From positions 1 to 41,826 of IMG/VR virus record IMGVR_UViG_3300033145_000579: a stretch of DNA of 41,826 bases, one strand, 5' to 3'. Positions 32,721 through 38,808 of this stretch are shown here, one piece after another. The notes beneath the pieces are model-generated. The model was not told the origin of the DNA, made no database searches, and worked only from the letters and a program-made list of their open reading frames with translations. This DNA comes from a virus. Positions within the stretch are counted from its first letter, which is position 1. Every line of letters starts with the position of its first letter. A program made the translations under genes and the position numbers.

Positions 32721-32775
32721 AACGTTACTCCTTTACATTTACGCTTGTAACAGCGATTACTGGGTAACCTGCCAG

Positions 32776-32791
32776 TATTTCACGTGAAACA
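32776..32791. promoter_or_regulatory. parS-like ParB-binding palindrome
   Basis: The plus strand reads TATTTCACGTGAAACA, 15 of 16 positions identical to the bacterial chromosomal parS consensus TGTTTCACGTGAAACA; the core TTTCACGTGAAA is a perfect palindrome. No ParB or ParA gene is recognisable in this window, so any binding protein would be the host's. Confidence 0.55.
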
Positions 32792-32860: not shown

Positions 32861-32925
32861 GAAGTGTGGTGTATCTTTTTTTATTACCTATCACCCATAG
32901 AACTATTTTTTAGTATGATCATAAT

Positions 32926-32969
32926 AGAAAAGAGCTAAGTCGTTACGTATCAACAACTTAACTCTTTCT
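32926..32969 (-). other. Long hairpin after the 75-residue gene
   Basis: Arms of 18 and 19 bases pair almost completely (one bulge, some wobbles) around a 7-base loop. No U-run follows on the minus strand, so it may be a processing or stability element, or DNA structure, and not an intrinsic terminator. Confidence 0.5.
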
Positions 32970-32997
32970 AATCCTGTACCATCACTCTGTATCAGAT

Positions 32998-33225
32998 TTA
33001 GCTCTCTTTTTCCTTATCTGTCAACTCTTGAAAAGGCGCTTTGGCATTAATACAATCCTTTGAAAGCGCTACCAAATGATTAGTAAAACGCTCTCTATTC
33101 GCTGTGTCTGATTCCAACCACTTACGAAACTCTAGTGATGTAATATTACCAAATACAACCCGTCCATCTGGTGATGCACAAGGTATCTCTACAACTCTAA
33201 TCCAATCTATTGTTTTATTCTCCAT
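32998..33225 (-). CDS. Small hypothetical protein (75 aa)
   Basis: The start overlaps the amidase stop by 11 bases, suggesting coupled translation. Begins MENKTIDWIRVVEIPCASPD; the middle has a helix EFRKWLESDTANRERFTNHL. No membrane span or known motif. As the last gene before the terminase leader it could be a lysis regulator or an unrelated accessory. Function unknown. Confidence 0.6.
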   Translation of the reverse strand: MENKTIDWIRVVEIPCASPDGRVVFGNITSLEFRKWLESDTANRERFTNHLVALSKDCINAKAPFQELTDKEKES

Positions 33226-33949: not shown

Positions 33950-34447
33950 TCAGCCGTTAAGCGTCTTTATCACCGCTCTCTTTGTTTTATCATTTCCCTT
34001 TCCATATTTTAAAGCTGATCTTGCCATATCTCCTTTGAATATAACTAGCATAGATCCACTCATGCCAGAATTATTTGTGACATATATGCCTTTTGAGTTT
34101 ATACCTTTAAATTTAACCCTACCCTTTAAAAATCTTATTATAGCATTAGGATAAATAACTTCGTGGAATATTTTGGTATCAGTTGATACTGGCAATAACA
34201 AAATACAAGTCTTGCCTTTCTTACTTTCTTCTAATGCTTTCATAATAAAAGCTTCTTTTAATTTTCGGCTGTATGGTGGATTAATAAAACAAACACCACC
34301 TTGCCAATCAGATTTAAGACCATCCCACTTAGATAAATCATTATTTAAAGGACAAGGATCGAAGAAATTACCAAACTCACTTTTAATTGCAGATAATACT
34401 TCTTGTGGTGTTTCCCAATTATCGTGGATAGGCTTTCTAATTTTCAT
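33950..34447 (-). CDS. Phage N6-adenine DNA methyltransferase (Dam family)
   Basis: 165 residues. It has the pattern of phage N-6-adenine methyltransferases: NWETPQEVLSAI at the start, FFDPCPLNND as the SAM-binding part, and the catalytic FINPPYSR, followed by CILLLPVSTDTKIFHEVIYP. It methylates adenine in phage DNA, probably to escape host restriction or to mark replicated DNA. The target sequence cannot be read from the protein. The ATG overlaps the preceding stop as ATGA. Unlike the methyltransferase domain in the giant protein, the catalytic motif here is intact. Confidence 0.92.
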   Translation of the reverse strand: MKIRKPIHDNWETPQEVLSAIKSEFGNFFDPCPLNNDLSKWDGLKSDWQGGVCFINPPYSRKLKEAFIMKALEESKKGKTCILLLPVSTDTKIFHEVIYPNAIIRFLKGRVKFKGINSKGIYVTNNSGMSGSMLVIFKGDMARSALKYGKGNDKTKRAVIKTLNG

Positions 34448-34977
34448 GCTTGACTCTCCAATCTTTTAACCACATTAAACGGTATACCTTTTGGCTTATA
34501 AGGCTCATAATAATCAGGATAATACCCTCCGATACTCTCTCTAATGCTAGGTGTAGGAAGGGAGGCAGTTGGTCTGCGATACACTCTTCGTATCCGGTTC
34601 TCTTTATGCTGCTGATGACTTACATCTTCTGACAGCAATCCAGCCCCCGAGTCAGGGCATATATCAAGGCTACCACGCCACTCCCCACTACACCTATTCA
34701 AATCTTTAATAAGCACTCTAGCTTTCTCTGCATATTGTTTATCTCCTGTGCCTGCATATTTAGTTAATGCTGTTGTTATAGCTTTTAATGCTATGCTCTC
34801 TAGCTCTCCGTTGTCGTTCCATGTTGATTGGGGTCTCAAATTAAAAATGGTGGTACCAACTGGCTCGTAGTCAGTTCTCGAGACTGACACTTCGGTTGCA
34901 AGGTTCTCAGTACTACACCAAGATAACCAAGGGCTGCCAAACCACACCACCATCAATAATAATAAGATTAGTTTCAC
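34444..34977 (-). CDS. Secreted or periplasmic protein of unknown function, paralogue A
   Basis: 177 residues. A signal-peptide-like start (MKLILLLLMVVWFGSPWLSW) is followed by a polar domain with two spaced cysteines (NRCSGEWRGSLDICPDSGAG) and a Tyr/Pro-rich C-terminus (GGYYPDYYEPYKPKG). The signal region and a TTIFNL segment are shared with the next gene upstream, showing a duplication. The GTG start overlaps that gene's stop as GTGA. No family recognised; export and two cysteines suggest a periplasmic or envelope role. Confidence 0.6.
   Translation of the reverse strand: MKLILLLLMVVWFGSPWLSWCSTENLATEVSVSRTDYEPVGTTIFNLRPQSTWNDNGELESIALKAITTALTKYAGTGDKQYAEKARVLIKDLNRCSGEWRGSLDICPDSGAGLLSEDVSHQQHKENRIRRVYRRPTASLPTPSIRESIGGYYPDYYEPYKPKGIPFNVVKRLESQA
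34835..34855. repeat. 21-bp repeat shared by two paralogous genes
   Basis: This block, centred on AAATTAAAAATGGTGGTA, recurs identically at 35089-35109. It encodes the TTIFNL segment in both paralogues and marks the duplication. Confidence 0.8.
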
Positions 34978-35267
34978 TTACTTCCCTTCTTTAAATGAAT
35001 GAGCCAAGGACGAGATTCGAACTCGCGTCTTCCTTCTAATGTAGATTGGACGTCCTTGAGGATATTTTCCCAGTTAAAACTACCTTGGCTCAAATTAAAA
35101 ATGGTGGTAGCAGTTGGTCTGCAACTTTGGTCAATGACGCTAGGCTTTACTACTCGCCCTACATACTTGTGTTCGCCACTTTCCCACATGCCACAAGAAG
35201 CACTCATGGTTAGACTACTTGTCAGGTTTCCGAACCATACCACCATTAATATTAATAAGATTCTCAC
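34974..35267 (-). CDS. Secreted protein paralogue B with a C-terminus encoded by a tRNA-like sequence
   Basis: 97 residues. It shares a signal-like start (MRILLILMVVWFG) and the TTIFNL block with the following gene, including a 21-base identical DNA stretch (34835-34855 and 35089-35109). After that block the similarity stops exactly where the tRNA-like element begins, and the remaining residues (GRREFESRPWLIHL) are the kind of translation produced by a tRNA T arm. So the frame is either a chimera or a gene truncated by insertion. GTG start, overlapping the upstream stop as GTGA. Confidence 0.5.
   Translation of the reverse strand: MRILLILMVVWFGNLTSSLTMSASCGMWESGEHKYVGRVVKPSVIDQSCRPTATTIFNLSQGSFNWENILKDVQSTLEGRREFESRPWLIHLKKGSK
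35001..35091 (-). other. tRNA-like relic (intact acceptor and T arm, no anticodon arm)
   Basis: The minus strand has a perfect 9-bp outer stem GAGCCAAGG/CCTTGGCTC, of which 7 bp correspond to the acceptor. TA follows at positions 8-9, then a D-arm-like GTTT...AAAT enclosing AACTGGGA, and a canonical T arm GCGAG-TTCGAAT-CTCGT. The 37 bases between D and T arms contain no 5-7-5 anticodon hairpin in any register I tried, so a working tRNA is unlikely. It could be a decayed tRNA, a structural mimic, or an attachment-like capture of a host tRNA end; no integrase is seen. Confidence 0.6.
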
Positions 35268-35416
35268 TTCACTATCTTAGCTAATTGTTTAATATTTGTA
35301 TCTAAGATTAAAATTGACCTTTTGTAATTAGCTAAAACACTATATGCATAGAAAACGATAAAATACAAACATACAATAGATATAGTTAATCCCCATATAT
35401 AGATTTTATACTCCAT
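35264..35416 (-). CDS. 50-residue single-span membrane protein
   Basis: The ATG overlaps the previous stop as TGATG, and its own stop overlaps the next GTG. The product has one long hydrophobic span (residues 6-28: IYIWGLTISIVCLYFIVFYA) and a basic helical tail. It may be a small inner-membrane effector in the secreted-protein cluster. No family recognised. Confidence 0.6.
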   Translation of the reverse strand: MEYKIYIWGLTISIVCLYFIVFYAYSVLANYKRSILILDTNIKQLAKIVK

Positions 35417-35535
35417 CACTCCACTTTCCCTTCTTTGCCCTCTTTTAATTCTTTAACATTTTCCCAATAACTACACCTACAACTACTTCCAATGCGACAA
35501 GTTATCCAAGCCCAAAAAGCTTCTATTAAACACAT
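35416..35535 (-). CDS. 39-residue cysteine-rich peptide
   Basis: Starts after GAAGGGAAG. Residues 5-25 (EAFWAWITCRIGSSCRCSYW) hold three cysteines and several tryptophans; the tail is Lys/Glu-rich. The stop overlaps the next start as TGATG. Coding is inferred from the overlap chain. Function unknown. Confidence 0.45.
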   Translation of the reverse strand: MCLIEAFWAWITCRIGSSCRCSYWENVKELKEGKEGKVE

Positions 35536-35591: not shown

Positions 35592-35636
35592 TTACATTCT
35601 ATCCTTTGTTTTTTTACAAACACTACATTTTTTCAT
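35592..35636 (-). CDS. 14-residue CxxC micropeptide
   Basis: The ATG overlaps the stop of the 29-residue leader ORF as ATGA and is preceded by GGGGG. The peptide MKKCSVCKKTKDRM carries one CxxC pair. It is too short to call confidently; the overlap is the only support. Confidence 0.3.
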   Translation of the reverse strand: MKKCSVCKKTKDRM

Positions 35637-35722
35637 ATTACCCCCAATAAAAAAGGCACATCATCGGTGTTAGTAGAAAGAAGCTTAATTCTTTCGCCGA
35701 CTTTGTGCCTTAATTTAAACAT
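35633..35722 (-). CDS. 29-residue leader peptide inside the RNA switch
   Basis: AAGGAGG stands 8 bases before the ATG, the strongest ribosome site in the region. The peptide (MFKLRHKVGERIKLLSTNTD, then a hydrophobic end) is encoded across the terminator arms. A ribosome on it would disrupt the hairpin, as in attenuation by leader translation. The KVGERIKLLS start recalls small phage domains of the GDRV-LLS type, but the ORF stops early. Confidence 0.45.
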   Translation of the reverse strand: MFKLRHKVGERIKLLSTNTDDVPFLLGVI

Positions 35723-35745
35723 AAAAAATGCCTCCTTCTACTAAC
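35646..35745 (-). ncRNA. Candidate 100-nt regulatory RNA with alternative folds
   Basis: The predicted transcript starts at 35745. Fold 1: its first 15 bases, which include the GGAGG ribosome site, pair end to end (two wobbles) with 35669-35683. Fold 2: a terminator with AAGGCACA/TGTGCCTT (8 bp), TCGG/CCGA and GAAAGAA/TTCTTTC stacked in one hairpin (35653-35711), followed by TTTTTATT. The folds share bases 35669-35683 and exclude each other. It is either a switch controlling the leader peptide and downstream genes or a stand-alone small RNA. Confidence 0.7.
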
Positions 35746-35751
35746 AAGAAC

Positions 35752-35780
35752 ATTATAGCATTTATTGGATTCATTGTCAA
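35752..35780 (-). promoter_or_regulatory. Perfect consensus sigma-70 promoter
   Basis: TTGACA (35780-35775), a 17-base spacer and TATAAT (35757-35752) on the minus strand match the consensus at every position. The expected start, about 35745, coincides with the first base of the 15-bp sequestering stem. Confidence 0.92.
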
Positions 35781-35816
35781 CCCTTTTCTTGTAACGCTAA
35801 TGTTATCTCTGATGGT

Positions 35817-35990
35817 TTAGTCATTTTTGGTCTCCTTGCTCTTAGATTTGTCTGATGCAACTACAAACATTCTAATCCTACTTGCATTATTATCTTTATA
35901 GTATTTAGAACAAACAGATTTATTTGTTATTAAATAATACTCTTCAGCAAATAACAATTTAAAGCAAGCTTTTAATGTTAGAAATCTCAT
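35817..35990 (-). CDS. Small hypothetical protein (57 aa)
   Basis: Starts at ATG 35990 after AGGAGGGGG, inside the 31-base repeat also found at 36431. The N-terminus MRFLTLKACFKLLFAEEYYL is amphipathic and hydrophobic; the rest is basic and polar. Its stop overlaps a further GGAGACC-ATGA start cassette. No family recognised; the coding call rests on the ribosome site and packing. Confidence 0.5.
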   Translation of the reverse strand: MRFLTLKACFKLLFAEEYYLITNKSVCSKYYKDNNASRIRMFVVASDKSKSKETKND

Positions 35991-36015
35991 TCTACCCCCT
36001 CCTCTATTTTCCTAT
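35985..36015. repeat. 31-bp intragenic duplication, copy 1
   Basis: 30 of 31 positions match 36431-36461. On the minus strand the block encodes a RKIEEG-type gene end, a ribosome site and the ATGA of the next ORF, so it is a portable stop/start cassette. Confidence 0.8.
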
Positions 36016-36399
36016 TCATTTTTGGTCTCCTGCCTTGGCTATTGCTTGTTCTATAATATCTACCAAAGTTTTCATATAGTCTGCGTGAATTCCTTCAGTT
36101 GTGCCATCAGCACAAAATTGGCAGGCAATCATCGCCCTAATTTCTTTACAAGCCTCTAACAACTCAGCAGTAATAGCTTTATCAGGTAGAGAGTCTAGTT
36201 GTTGTTGAAGTTTGTCTTTATCTCTTGATACATTTAATATATCTTGTAATAGAACTTTTATTCCTTCCTCATGCCATTTATTAAACTCTTCCCAGCATTG
36301 ATTTCGAGCTATAAACCCATAAGCTGTTGTCACGTCGGGTTTAGGAAATCCATTAATACCTTTTATTATATCTTCGCTTATCTTCTCTGGTTTATTCAT
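36016..36399 (-). CDS. Hypothetical protein (127 aa)
   Basis: Begins after AGGGAGACC. A Trp-rich N-terminal part (RNQCWEEFNKWHEEGIKVLL), a coiled-coil middle (VSRDKDKLQQQLDSLPDKAI) and a helix with Cys residues (ACKEIRAMIACQFCADGTTE). Small coiled-coil accessory proteins of this style are common in phage early regions. No function assigned. Confidence 0.65.
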   Translation of the reverse strand: MNKPEKISEDIIKGINGFPKPDVTTAYGFIARNQCWEEFNKWHEEGIKVLLQDILNVSRDKDKLQQQLDSLPDKAITAELLEACKEIRAMIACQFCADGTTEGIHADYMKTLVDIIEQAIAKAGDQK

Positions 36400-36430
36400 T
36401 TTTGGTCTCCCTAAGTATTAATAATGTTAT

Positions 36431-36461
36431 TCTCATTCTATCCCCTCCTCTATTTTCCTAT
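36431..36461. repeat. 31-bp intragenic duplication, copy 2
   Basis: Matches 35985-36015 with one difference. It supplies the RKIEEGIE end of the 79-residue protein and an ATGA start for a 14-codon ORF. Confidence 0.8.
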
Positions 36462-36672
36462 GATGCTGGTTGTAGCCAATACTTGTGTAAGGAAATATTT
36501 CGTTGGTGCTTAAATCTTTATAAGTTTCTTCTTTCTCACCATTAAGCTCTTTTATGAGGTTGCAAATTTGGATGGTGGCATCTTTTCGCATATCCTTTAC
36601 ATAGGGATTACATTTTATATCATGTGGTATTAACTTATCTATAATCTTCTCTAATTCTTTCTTAAAGTTCAT
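36433..36672 (-). CDS. Hypothetical protein (79 aa)
   Basis: The ATG overlaps the stop of the Ala/Tyr-repeat protein as ATGA, and the ribosome site is encoded by that gene's final Glu-Glu codons. Helical start (MNFKKELEKIIDKLIPHDIK), then a mixed tail with HHRKIEEGIE. No family recognised. Confidence 0.6.
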   Translation of the reverse strand: MNFKKELEKIIDKLIPHDIKCNPYVKDMRKDATIQICNLIKELNGEKEETYKDLSTNEIFPYTSIGYNQHHRKIEEGIE

Positions 36673-37283
36673 TTCTCCTCCAAAAGTTTAATACCATAAG
36701 TTAAAATCTTTAACCTCATTTCTTTTTCAGCAGCAGCAGAAGTATAAGCATTAGCAGCAGCAGAAGTATAAGCATTAGCAGCAGCATAAGCAGCATTAGC
36801 AGCATAAGCATAAGCATAAGCAGCATCAGCAGCAACATAAGCAGCATCAGCAGCAGAAGCAGTAGAAGTAGCAGCATTAGCAGCAGAAGTAGCAGCAGCA
36901 TTAGCAGCATCATCAGCATAAGAAGCAGTAGAAGCAGCAAAAGCATAAGCAGCATAAGAAGCATCAGCAGCAGAAGCTTTATTTTCCTTAGAAGGGTCTT
37001 TTATGCACCTCTTAGCTGCTTCAATGGCTTTTCTAGGTCTATTATCTTCAGGATATTCCTTTTCAAATATATCAATTACTTGTTCTGCTGCAAAAACAGC
37101 GTATGACACAGAACCTTTGTAATCCATTAACCTAACTATTGTCCACTTAGCCCAGTCAAGTTTATCTTCTTTGATTAATTTCTTAACAACATCTATACCT
37201 TCGGAGTCTTTCTGCTTTAAAAACCATCTAACACCTTCACCACAAGCGTTCTTATCTTTTAGCCATTGTTTGGTTATTTTCAT
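36669..37283 (-). CDS. Ala/Tyr-repeat protein with immunity-like N-terminus (204 aa)
   Basis: Residues 1-90 start MKITKQWLKDKNACGEGVRW and include LDWAKWTIVRLMDYKGSVSY, a pattern seen in phage and prophage proteins annotated as putative immunity proteins. Residues ~105-190 are almost only Ala, Tyr, Asn, Ser, Asp and Thr, repeating AAYAAANA-like units. The C-terminus (LKILTYGIKLLEEK) is normal helix. The repeat probably forms a long helix or solenoid. The stop overlaps the next ATG. The exact role is unknown; protection against a host or rival toxin is only a family-level hint. Confidence 0.65.
   Translation of the reverse strand: MKITKQWLKDKNACGEGVRWFLKQKDSEGIDVVKKLIKEDKLDWAKWTIVRLMDYKGSVSYAVFAAEQVIDIFEKEYPEDNRPRKAIEAAKRCIKDPSKENKASAADASYAAYAFAASTASYADDAANAAATSAANAATSTASAADAAYVAADAAYAYAYAANAAYAAANAYTSAAANAYTSAAAEKEMRLKILTYGIKLLEEK
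36727..36975. repeat. Trinucleotide (GCA-type) tandem repeat tract
   Basis: About 250 bases made almost only of AGC and related triplets on the plus strand (Ala/Tyr codons on the minus strand). It lies wholly inside the 204-residue protein, keeps the frame in triplet steps, and is likely to vary in length between relatives. Confidence 0.85.
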
Positions 37284-38077: not shown

Positions 38078-38674
38078 CTAGATCTTATCTATGCAGCACT
38101 TCTTATACTTCGCTCCTGACCCACAAGGACAAGGATCGTTTCTTCCTGTCTTGTTGATCTTCTGGTGTCCTCTATCAAACGATAAAATTCCGTCCATATG
38201 GTCAATTTCGTGTTGGATCATCACGGCTTCAAGGCCTGTAGCATCAAAAGTGTGATTCCCAGACTTCACCACGATATGTAAATATCTATCCACCGTAAAC
38301 CTTTTACCCGGGATAGATAGACAACCCTCTCCACTAAACATATAAAGCTTACTCTTGTCTAAGATCTCTGGGTTCAGCAACGTCCTTTCAAAAACCTTAT
38401 CTTCCTTTTGTATATTATACCAAGCAACCCTATATGGTTCTCCAATTTGAATTGCTGACAACCCAAGCCCGTGCGTCCAAGCATAAGGTATCGCTGCTTT
38501 TATTCTCTCTATGATATATAATTGCTTTACTTCTTTTTCTGTGATTGGGCGACTCAAAAATTTTAAGTAGGATTTATCTTCTGGGTATGTAAGGATCTTG
38601 TCAATTTCCTCAGGCTTTATATAGCTTGATGCTTGTTGAATGAGTTCGGTTTTTGCTTCTACTGTAGCTTGCAT
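38078..38674 (-). CDS. def: Peptide deformylase with C-terminal SEC-C zinc motif
   Basis: 198 residues. All three deformylase motifs are intact: GLGLSAIQ (69-76), EGCLS (116-120) and QHEIDH (154-159), giving the Cys and two His metal ligands and the catalytic Glu. It removes formyl groups from nascent proteins at the ribosome. Residues 179-194 ([16 protein letters not shown]) form a SEC-C motif, a zinc site found on SecA and other ribosome- or chaperone-linked proteins but unusual on a deformylase. ATG 38674 is chosen from AAAGGAG; TTG 38680 is an alternative. A promoter and structured leader precede it. Confidence 0.93.
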
Positions 38675-38689
38675 TTTCAACTCCTTTTA

Positions 38690-38761
38690 GGTTCCGGAAG
38701 CCAACCTCGCTAAAGATCGGCTCCCGGTCAAGCACGGGCGCCCGTCCTTGTGAAACTAACC
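38690..38761 (-). ncRNA. GC-rich structured leader RNA of the deformylase gene
   Basis: A 72-base segment, far more GC-rich than its surroundings, lies between promoter and ribosome site. The minus-strand RNA can form GGTT/AACC closing a junction, a 22-base near-palindrome (38729-38750, one mismatch pair) and a 9-bp hairpin CCGGGAGCC/GGCTTCCGG (38694-38727). The single G-T pair in that hairpin would be an A-C mismatch if the plus strand were transcribed, favouring minus-strand RNA. Known riboswitch not recognised. Confidence 0.55.
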
Positions 38762-38780
38762 TTATTCGTCTGTCAATTAT

Positions 38781-38808
38781 AGTATATCATTTTTGTAATC
38801 TTTGTCAA
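38781..38808 (-). promoter_or_regulatory. Sigma-70 promoter for the deformylase operon
   Basis: TTGACA (38808-38803), a 16-base spacer and TATACT (38786-38781) on the minus strand. The expected start near 38774 puts the whole structured leader in the transcript. Confidence 0.75.

Follow-up and report, generated by a model that had tools for sequence, protein, structure and literature searches.

The leader and its gene neighbourhood

The window, i.e. the whole stretch of DNA that was analysed, is a complete IMG/VR virus record of 41,826 bases with the gene content of a tailed phage: portal, terminase, major head protein, endolysin, Erf-like annealing protein and peptide deformylase, nearly all of the genes being located on the minus strand. 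The leader element, on this same strand, is situated between small genes of unknown function on one side and a cluster of small ORFs on the other; with that cluster come a tRNA-like gene, a methyltransferase and the endolysin, followed by the packaging genes, whose small terminase gene is preceded by a separate conserved stretch. The features of the leader and of the three ORFs that follow it are collected in Table 1.

Table 1. Features of the leader element and of the ORFs downstream of it, in the direction of transcription
Feature	Sequence	Coordinates	Strand	Basis or remark
-35 hexamer	TTGACA	35775..35780	-	sequence match
Extended -10	TGC-TATAAT	35752..35760	-	sequence match; spacer to -35 of 17 nt
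Predicted +1	G35745	35745..35745	-	G seven nt past the -10, inferred from the sequence
Segment a (+1..+16)	GUUAGUAGAAGGAGGC	35730..35745	-	full pairing with a'
Shine-Dalgarno of the leader ORF	GGAGG	35731..35735	-	within segment a; sequence
Leader ORF, 29 codons	MFKLRHKVGERIKLLSTNTDDVPFLLGVI, stop	35633..35722	-	crosses the terminator; stop overlaps the next ATG (ATGA)
Segment b	GGCACAAAGUCGG	35697..35709	-	lower terminator tiers, 5' arm
Terminator top tier	GAAAGAA UUAAGC UUCUUUC	35676..35695	-	fold
Segment a' (+62..+77)	GCUUCUUUCUACUAAC	35669..35684	-	complement of a
Segment b'	CCGAUGAUGUGCC	35655..35667	-	lower terminator tiers, 3' arm
U-run		35649..35654	-	predicted 3' end of a ~97-nt RNA
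Segment d	UUAUUGG	35644..35650	-	after read-through pairs with CCGAUGA of b', blocking re-formation of the terminator
14-aa ORF	MKKCSVCKKTKDRM, stop	35592..35636	-	start overlaps the leader stop (ATGA coupling); weak, from sequence
39-aa ORF	MCLIEAFWAWITCRIG...	35416..35535	-	own Shine-Dalgarno; from sequence
50-aa ORF	MEYKIYIWGLTISIVCLYFIVFYAYS...	35264..35416	-	one hydrophobic stretch; overlaps the stop of the 39-aa ORF

The 14-aa ORF may not be a genuine gene; the 39-aa ORF, for which the Pfam search gave no match, is probably the first real gene downstream of the leader, and the 50-aa ORF has no Pfam match in its own frame either. No resistance gene is seen downstream of the leader, where there are small ORFs that match no family, a DNA methyltransferase and an endolysin.

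Several other elements of the same genome were recorded in passing; those of this paragraph and the first two of the next lie on the minus strand. The tRNA-like gene (35002-35089; Rfam RF00005, 38.8 bits, E 2.3e-6), which was missed by ARAGORN and by the fast whole-window Rfam scan, is interrupted in the anticodon/variable region by a long insert; the 3' half of this gene also reads as the C-terminus of a 97-aa ORF (35267-34974; ...EGRREFESRPWLIHL). Two adjacent secreted-type proteins, encoded at 34444-35267, have similar starts (MKLILLLLMVVWFGS and MRILLILMVVWFGN) and the DNA repeats D6 and D9 in common; judging from these sequences, the pair is a tandem duplication with the tRNA-like gene between its members. 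In the region 35803-36461, a start cassette (GGAGACCAAAAATGA) is repeated at 35821, 36016 and 36396, a 44-nt repeat occurs at 35972 and 36418, and a 15-aa ORF from 35822 resembles a shortened duplicate of how the 127-aa gene at 36399 begins. An alanine/tyrosine-rich repeat protein (36669-37283; phrog_38757), with 18 copies at a spacing of 9-18 nt, is common to otherwise unrelated viral contigs, including the contig L018 that is discussed below.

Ahead of the peptide deformylase gene lies another leader, of ~100 nt (38670-38774), which is served by a second strong promoter, again with an extended -10 (TTGACA-16-TATACT, at 38808); it forms a long hairpin (-39.6 kcal/mol, z -3.6) and has no match in the Rfam search. 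Before the small terminase gene, the stretch 32722-32780 (AGTAATCGC...GCGTAAATGTAAAGGAG) is ~90% conserved in four related contigs (L002, L003, L004 and L005) that are otherwise ~70% alike; its small hairpin adjoins the ribosome site and is possibly a translational control element. Three of these contigs also have a strong terminator, AGGGATAAGTC...GGCTTATCTCT-TTTTTT, before the packaging genes (L002, 1045-1085; L004, 4420-4455; L005, ~525-565), while the window has a different hairpin there (32925-33012), in which GAGAGCTAA and AGTTAAGT are competing 5' partners of CTTAGCTC.

Promoter, 5' stem and terminator

The sequence-only reading of the window had named TTGACA-17-TATAAT as its best promoter, and our search agrees: the site (35780-35752, minus strand) matches the sigma-70 consensus at 12 of 12 positions, carries an extended -10 in addition, and is the sole 12/12 match in the window; in shuffled windows, a 12/12 promoter occurs at a chance rate of 0.045 per window, or 0.005 when the extended -10 is included. 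The predicted +1 coincides with the first base of the stem that is formed by segments a and a'.

This stem had been proposed as a full pairing of the first 15 transcribed bases, GGAGG among them, with a segment further on; the pairing is real, but the stem has 16 bp and not 15, all 16 positions being paired when G-U is included (duplex energy -22.5 kcal/mol). Viewed as an inverted repeat of the DNA, it has two mismatches, both of which become G-U pairs in the RNA, as would fit selection on RNA. Against the remainder of the element, the first 16 nt find a best pairing of -24.4 kcal/mol, an energy that none of 2000 dinucleotide shuffles attained (mean -7.8); the 106-nt leader folds at -32.5 kcal/mol (z -4.2).

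The terminator is built in three tiers, GGCACA/UGUGCC, GUCGG/CCGAU and GAAAGAA/UUCUUUC, followed by UUUUUUAUU; at -21.9 kcal/mol, the hairpin 35710-35654, which runs into TTTTTT, is the strongest in the window with a T-run directly after it. The partner segment of the stem does lie inside this three-tier terminator with its U-run, as had been described, but only 7 nt of it, those of the top tier, are paired there and the remainder is mostly bulge; the lower tiers have no sequence overlap with the a:a' stem.

The leader ORF begins 8 nt after GGAGG, with a U6 tract sitting between GGAGG and the ATG, and its stop lies beyond the terminator. The overlap of a 29-codon ORF with the terminator is thereby borne out: the ORF (35722-35633) spans 35710-35649 and reaches past the lower limit that had been assigned to the element. 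The peptide has no membrane-spanning stretch, and no relatives of it were found by tblastn, by a degenerate peptide pattern or in Pfam. Its codons 3-7 contain KLR and RHK, i.e. the R/K-X-R/K motif, a weak signal with its three residues; just a fraction of such motifs arrest ribosomes (PMC6851288).

Because the leader ORF spans b, a', b' and the U-run, the 29-aa peptide was recoded synonymously in 2000 versions with the codon usage of the same phage: the a:a' pairing was equalled by one version in 2000, and so was the terminator. The recodings match the structure so rarely that it is not a by-product of the peptide; the peptide could itself be a by-product of the RNA structure. Of 3000 shuffled versions of the element, 9 contained both a terminator abutting the U-run (<= -18 kcal/mol) and a 5' helix that competes with it and is more stable. 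By the shuffles and the synonymous recoding, the arrangement is very unlikely to have arisen by chance alone: the design is tight, statistically solid and single-copy.

Competition between the folds

In the terminated RNA, with two extra 5' bases included, the nested a:a' fold has an energy of -27.4 kcal/mol and the terminator fold one of -23.9 kcal/mol; in the growing RNA, a:a' prevails once a' has emerged. The partition function at the terminated end gives P(a:a') of 0.48 and P(b:b') of 0.53, values that hold for equilibrium and nested folds under standard parameters and that, with differences of 1-2 kcal/mol lying within error, describe folds that are close rather than exactly balanced. When segment a is blocked, the two probabilities change to 0 and 1.0; six nt past the terminated end they are 1.0 and 0.0, because UUAUUGG captures CCGAUGA of b'. 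The terminator drops to -11.8 kcal/mol when the footprint of an initiating ribosome is blocked. A clean discriminator between transcription from the element's own start and read-in finds no support, transcripts that originate upstream keeping the same competition of a:a' with b:b'.

The two folds had been called mutually exclusive, which is correct among nested folds. Since the lower tiers do not overlap with the stem, the exclusion does not necessarily extend to a pseudoknot that holds a:a' and b:b' together; in such a structure a' and b' would be 1 nt apart and the loops would measure 20 and 12 nt, and its energy of about -32 kcal/mol (-31.6 as a crude sum, with penalties from general knowledge) is below that of either nested fold.

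Relatives and analogues of the element

The search of the window against Rfam 15 gave no covariance-model match at gathering score, and the best matches of the element itself are chance ones (mir-2797, 20.3/74 bits; snoR113, 15.3/47); the earlier remark that the element was not recognised as a known riboswitch agrees with its absence from Rfam. A blastn search in 50,697 phage records returned chance matches only, and the exact pattern of segment a has 12 matches in IMG/VR, none of them with the promoter, the partner or a terminator. One match to the combined pattern of a and a' in genome contigs, at a Bacilli gene start that has no terminator, looks like chance and was set aside. The proteins encoded next to the element at 36016-36399 and 34444-34977 have no relatives that our search could find. 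The terminase relatives L002-L005 share the structural genes, but L004, the only one that reaches far enough upstream, lacks the element region, the contigs of L002, L003 and L005 ending before it; the element is likewise absent from the deformylase relatives L036-L052.

As no homologue was found, the search was conducted by layout instead, in ~1.04 Mb of viral sequence, the window included. It yielded 187 strong sites of a hairpin plus T-run, nine of which have a promoter-like site 35-170 nt upstream; among these nine, the element of the window has the best complementarity, which none of 300 shuffles equalled, and it alone has a hairpin crossed by a short ORF with a Shine-Dalgarno.

The leader of L018 has a promoter at 1716 and a 49-codon ORF that runs from near +1 through a terminator of -33 kcal/mol and stops one base before the GTG of the next gene. 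Near its 5' end, UCCCGCUAAA and UGGACGG pair with UUUAGCGGG and CCGUCCA inside the terminator, a pairing that was matched by one in 1000 recodings; the RNA folds as the terminator up to the U-run and as the antiterminator once the next ~15 nt are made. No Shine-Dalgarno is hidden in the L018 stem and there is no sequence similarity to the window, so that by its layout L018 appears as the clearest analogue of the element, and not as a relative; with many sites examined, a single analogue is suggestive and is not proof. A further candidate, L022, was rejected, its perfect hairpin of -37 kcal/mol not being displaced by the 5' segment.

A proposed cis-acting attenuator

The reading that we prefer, with a probability of roughly 0.55, is a cis-acting, promoter-proximal attenuator, by which some transcripts would end as a ~97-nt RNA and others would continue into a read-through mRNA whose leader is locked. 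The case for it is made by the sequence elements, the non-random pairing, the energies and the flips in silico, from which we infer transcription, termination, translation and regulation at the leader. The transcription/translation switch that had been suggested stands in its computational part, as a leader with two folds that are near balance, that flip, and that hold more structure than the peptide needs; the firing of the promoter, the termination and the translation are predictions of the model.

RNA polymerase would start at 35745, and the emerging segment a would leave the ribosome site of the leader exposed until a' emerges; a would then pair with a', hiding the ribosome site from +1 on and, in a nested fold, preventing the terminator. 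Should something already be bound to a by the time b' is made, or should the near-equal folds tip the other way, the three-tier terminator would form and transcription would stop after ~97 nt. Transcripts that escape would be latched in the fold that hides the ribosome site, d having captured b'; free translation of the leader would be denied to this read-through mRNA. A first ribosome that did enter the leader would cross the terminator and pass on to the next ORF at ATGA.

As long as a is free, the nested model has a:a' complete before b' is made, so that read-through would be the default and the terminator would be idle unless a is occupied. An initiating ribosome would cover a, but also the first bases of b, leaving a weaker terminator, while stalling at codons 3-7 (KLRHK), if it occurs, would place the ribosome over b and keep a free, favouring read-through. 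A terminator 30 bp inside a coding region has been found to retain nearly full activity though translated, the effect of translation being ~10% (PMC4824070); on this measurement, translation of the leader may matter little, and a coupled ribosome would not be a strong antiterminator at such a distance unless the polymerase pauses, for which the U6 tract between GGAGG and the ATG is a conjectural place. Points against the attenuator are that the first downstream ORF has just 14 codons, that the searches above gave no homologue, and that the pseudoknot, if formed, would tie concealment of the ribosome site to termination.

Comparison with known systems

The pyrBI attenuator of E. coli has a short leader ORF that includes a U-rich stretch and continues across the intrinsic terminator towards the start of the next gene, and pyrimidine genes are controlled through UTP-sensitive pausing. 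By its sequence, the leader ORF of the window has the layout of such a read-through: a short ORF passes through the terminator, and a U6 tract precedes the hairpin. Unlike this translated attenuator (named in PMC3641672 and PMC4824070), the element has a 16-bp stem from +1 that is a rival of the terminator and conceals the Shine-Dalgarno of the leader itself, and its downstream genes are small phage ORFs that have no pyrimidine link.

The tlrB/yxjB leader of Bacillus subtilis (PMC6851288) resembles the element in combining an intrinsic terminator, a leader peptide and a ribosome-site-hiding hairpin in one leader, and the peptide of the window contains KLR and RHK, candidate matches to R/K-X-R/K. 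In tlrB/yxjB, however, the hidden site is that of the resistance gene, further rounds of leader translation are repressed and the leader has 9 aa, whereas in the window the leader's own site is hidden, the leader has 29 aa and no resistance gene lies downstream, which sets the element apart from the erm/tlrB type. By analogy, the element would work like the known attenuators and in part like the IsrK RNA, and agrees with the full definition of none of them.

Alternative readings

Foremost among the alternatives, unlikely as we hold it to be, is a dual small RNA/mRNA of the IsrK kind, in which the ~97-nt RNA, its segment a being free, would bind in trans to a' in the locked read-through form and open the leader's ribosome site, the short RNA thereby turning on the long one. 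The IsrK RNA of prophage Gifsy-1 is a precedent, a short RNA that opens its own read-through mRNA, with read-through of a terminator, a long form that is not itself translated and coupling through a leader ORF (PMC4825925); there, as is predicted for the window, both a terminated short RNA and a read-through mRNA come from a single promoter, and the latter has a closed leader ORF that is coupled to the next gene. In the window, a is unpaired in the terminator fold and the read-through fold hides the ribosome site, as this reading would have it, but the short RNA can itself refold to a:a' (-27.4 against -23.9 kcal/mol) and the element is not conserved. Moreover, the IsrK ORF is located downstream of its terminator, while that of the window starts upstream and crosses it; the two elements have no sequence relation, and trans action in the window is hypothetical. 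The broader suggestion of a small RNA gains no support where a trans regulator of other phage genes is concerned, as no target within the phage for the 5' tail, the 3' tail or a' is better than those of shuffled tails; action on its own mRNA is what survives of it. The c4 RNA of P1/P7 and the CI RNA of P4 (PMC12197685, PMC4825925) are likewise short leader RNAs of phages that control their own operon by pairing with a ribosome site or with leader sequence, but these are processed antisense RNAs in immunity, and no second complementary site was found in the phage of the window.

The pseudoknot described above leads to a further reading, which we consider improbable: with a:a' and the lower tiers formed together, an untranslated leader would be both hidden and terminated, and an early ribosome alone would license read-through, i.e. 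a pyrBI-like translated attenuator with a ribosome-site lock. The gap of 1 nt, the loops of 20 and 12 nt and the lowest energy of the three states (-31.6 kcal/mol) are consistent with it, as is a leader ORF that crosses the terminator and ends at ATGA; that energy is a crude sum with penalties from general knowledge, though, topology makes it hard for a 13-nt helix to wind into a loop that is already closed behind RNA polymerase, and a translated terminator within 100 bp of a start was suppressed just weakly (PMC4824070).

An assembly of ordinary parts, i.e. a constitutive internal promoter, a 5' hairpin that makes the mRNA more stable or keeps a minor ORF low, and an operon terminator of the usual kind, with no switching, is quite doubtful. 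Paired 5' ends protect RNA, the element is located among small genes of one strand, and the same phage has another strongly structured leader (38774-38670, z -3.6); nevertheless, a terminator 92 nt downstream of the window's best promoter would be self-defeating without regulation, and a' belongs to both of the competing pairings, which are close to balance where the decision falls. A type I toxin mRNA, in which a small ORF typically has its ribosome site hidden by a long-range 5' stem as here, is hardly credible, as the 29-aa peptide has no membrane-spanning stretch, the ORF stops after the U-run and would leave the short RNA non-stop, no strong opposite-strand promoter for an antitoxin occurs at 35646-35780, and the combination of a complete toxin ORF in the terminated RNA with an antisense RNA is not what is found.

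Implications

If the prediction of the attenuator is right, a promoter, a ribosome-site lock, an antiterminator, a terminator and a leader peptide are held within ~140 bp, and one 16-nt segment serves all of the decisions. A wider generalisation is quite unlikely in our estimate, namely that of a recurrent phage leader design, independent of sequence, in which a segment from +1 would hide the ribosome site of a translated leader and undo a terminator inside the leader ORF; a latch just beyond the U-run would complete this element of ~97 nt, which would pick a short RNA or a read-through mRNA and in which the short RNA may unlock the long one. Phage leaders of this kind would easily be missed because their sequence is not conserved; the unrelated second example in L018 suggests that searches based on layout instead of sequence could find more of them.
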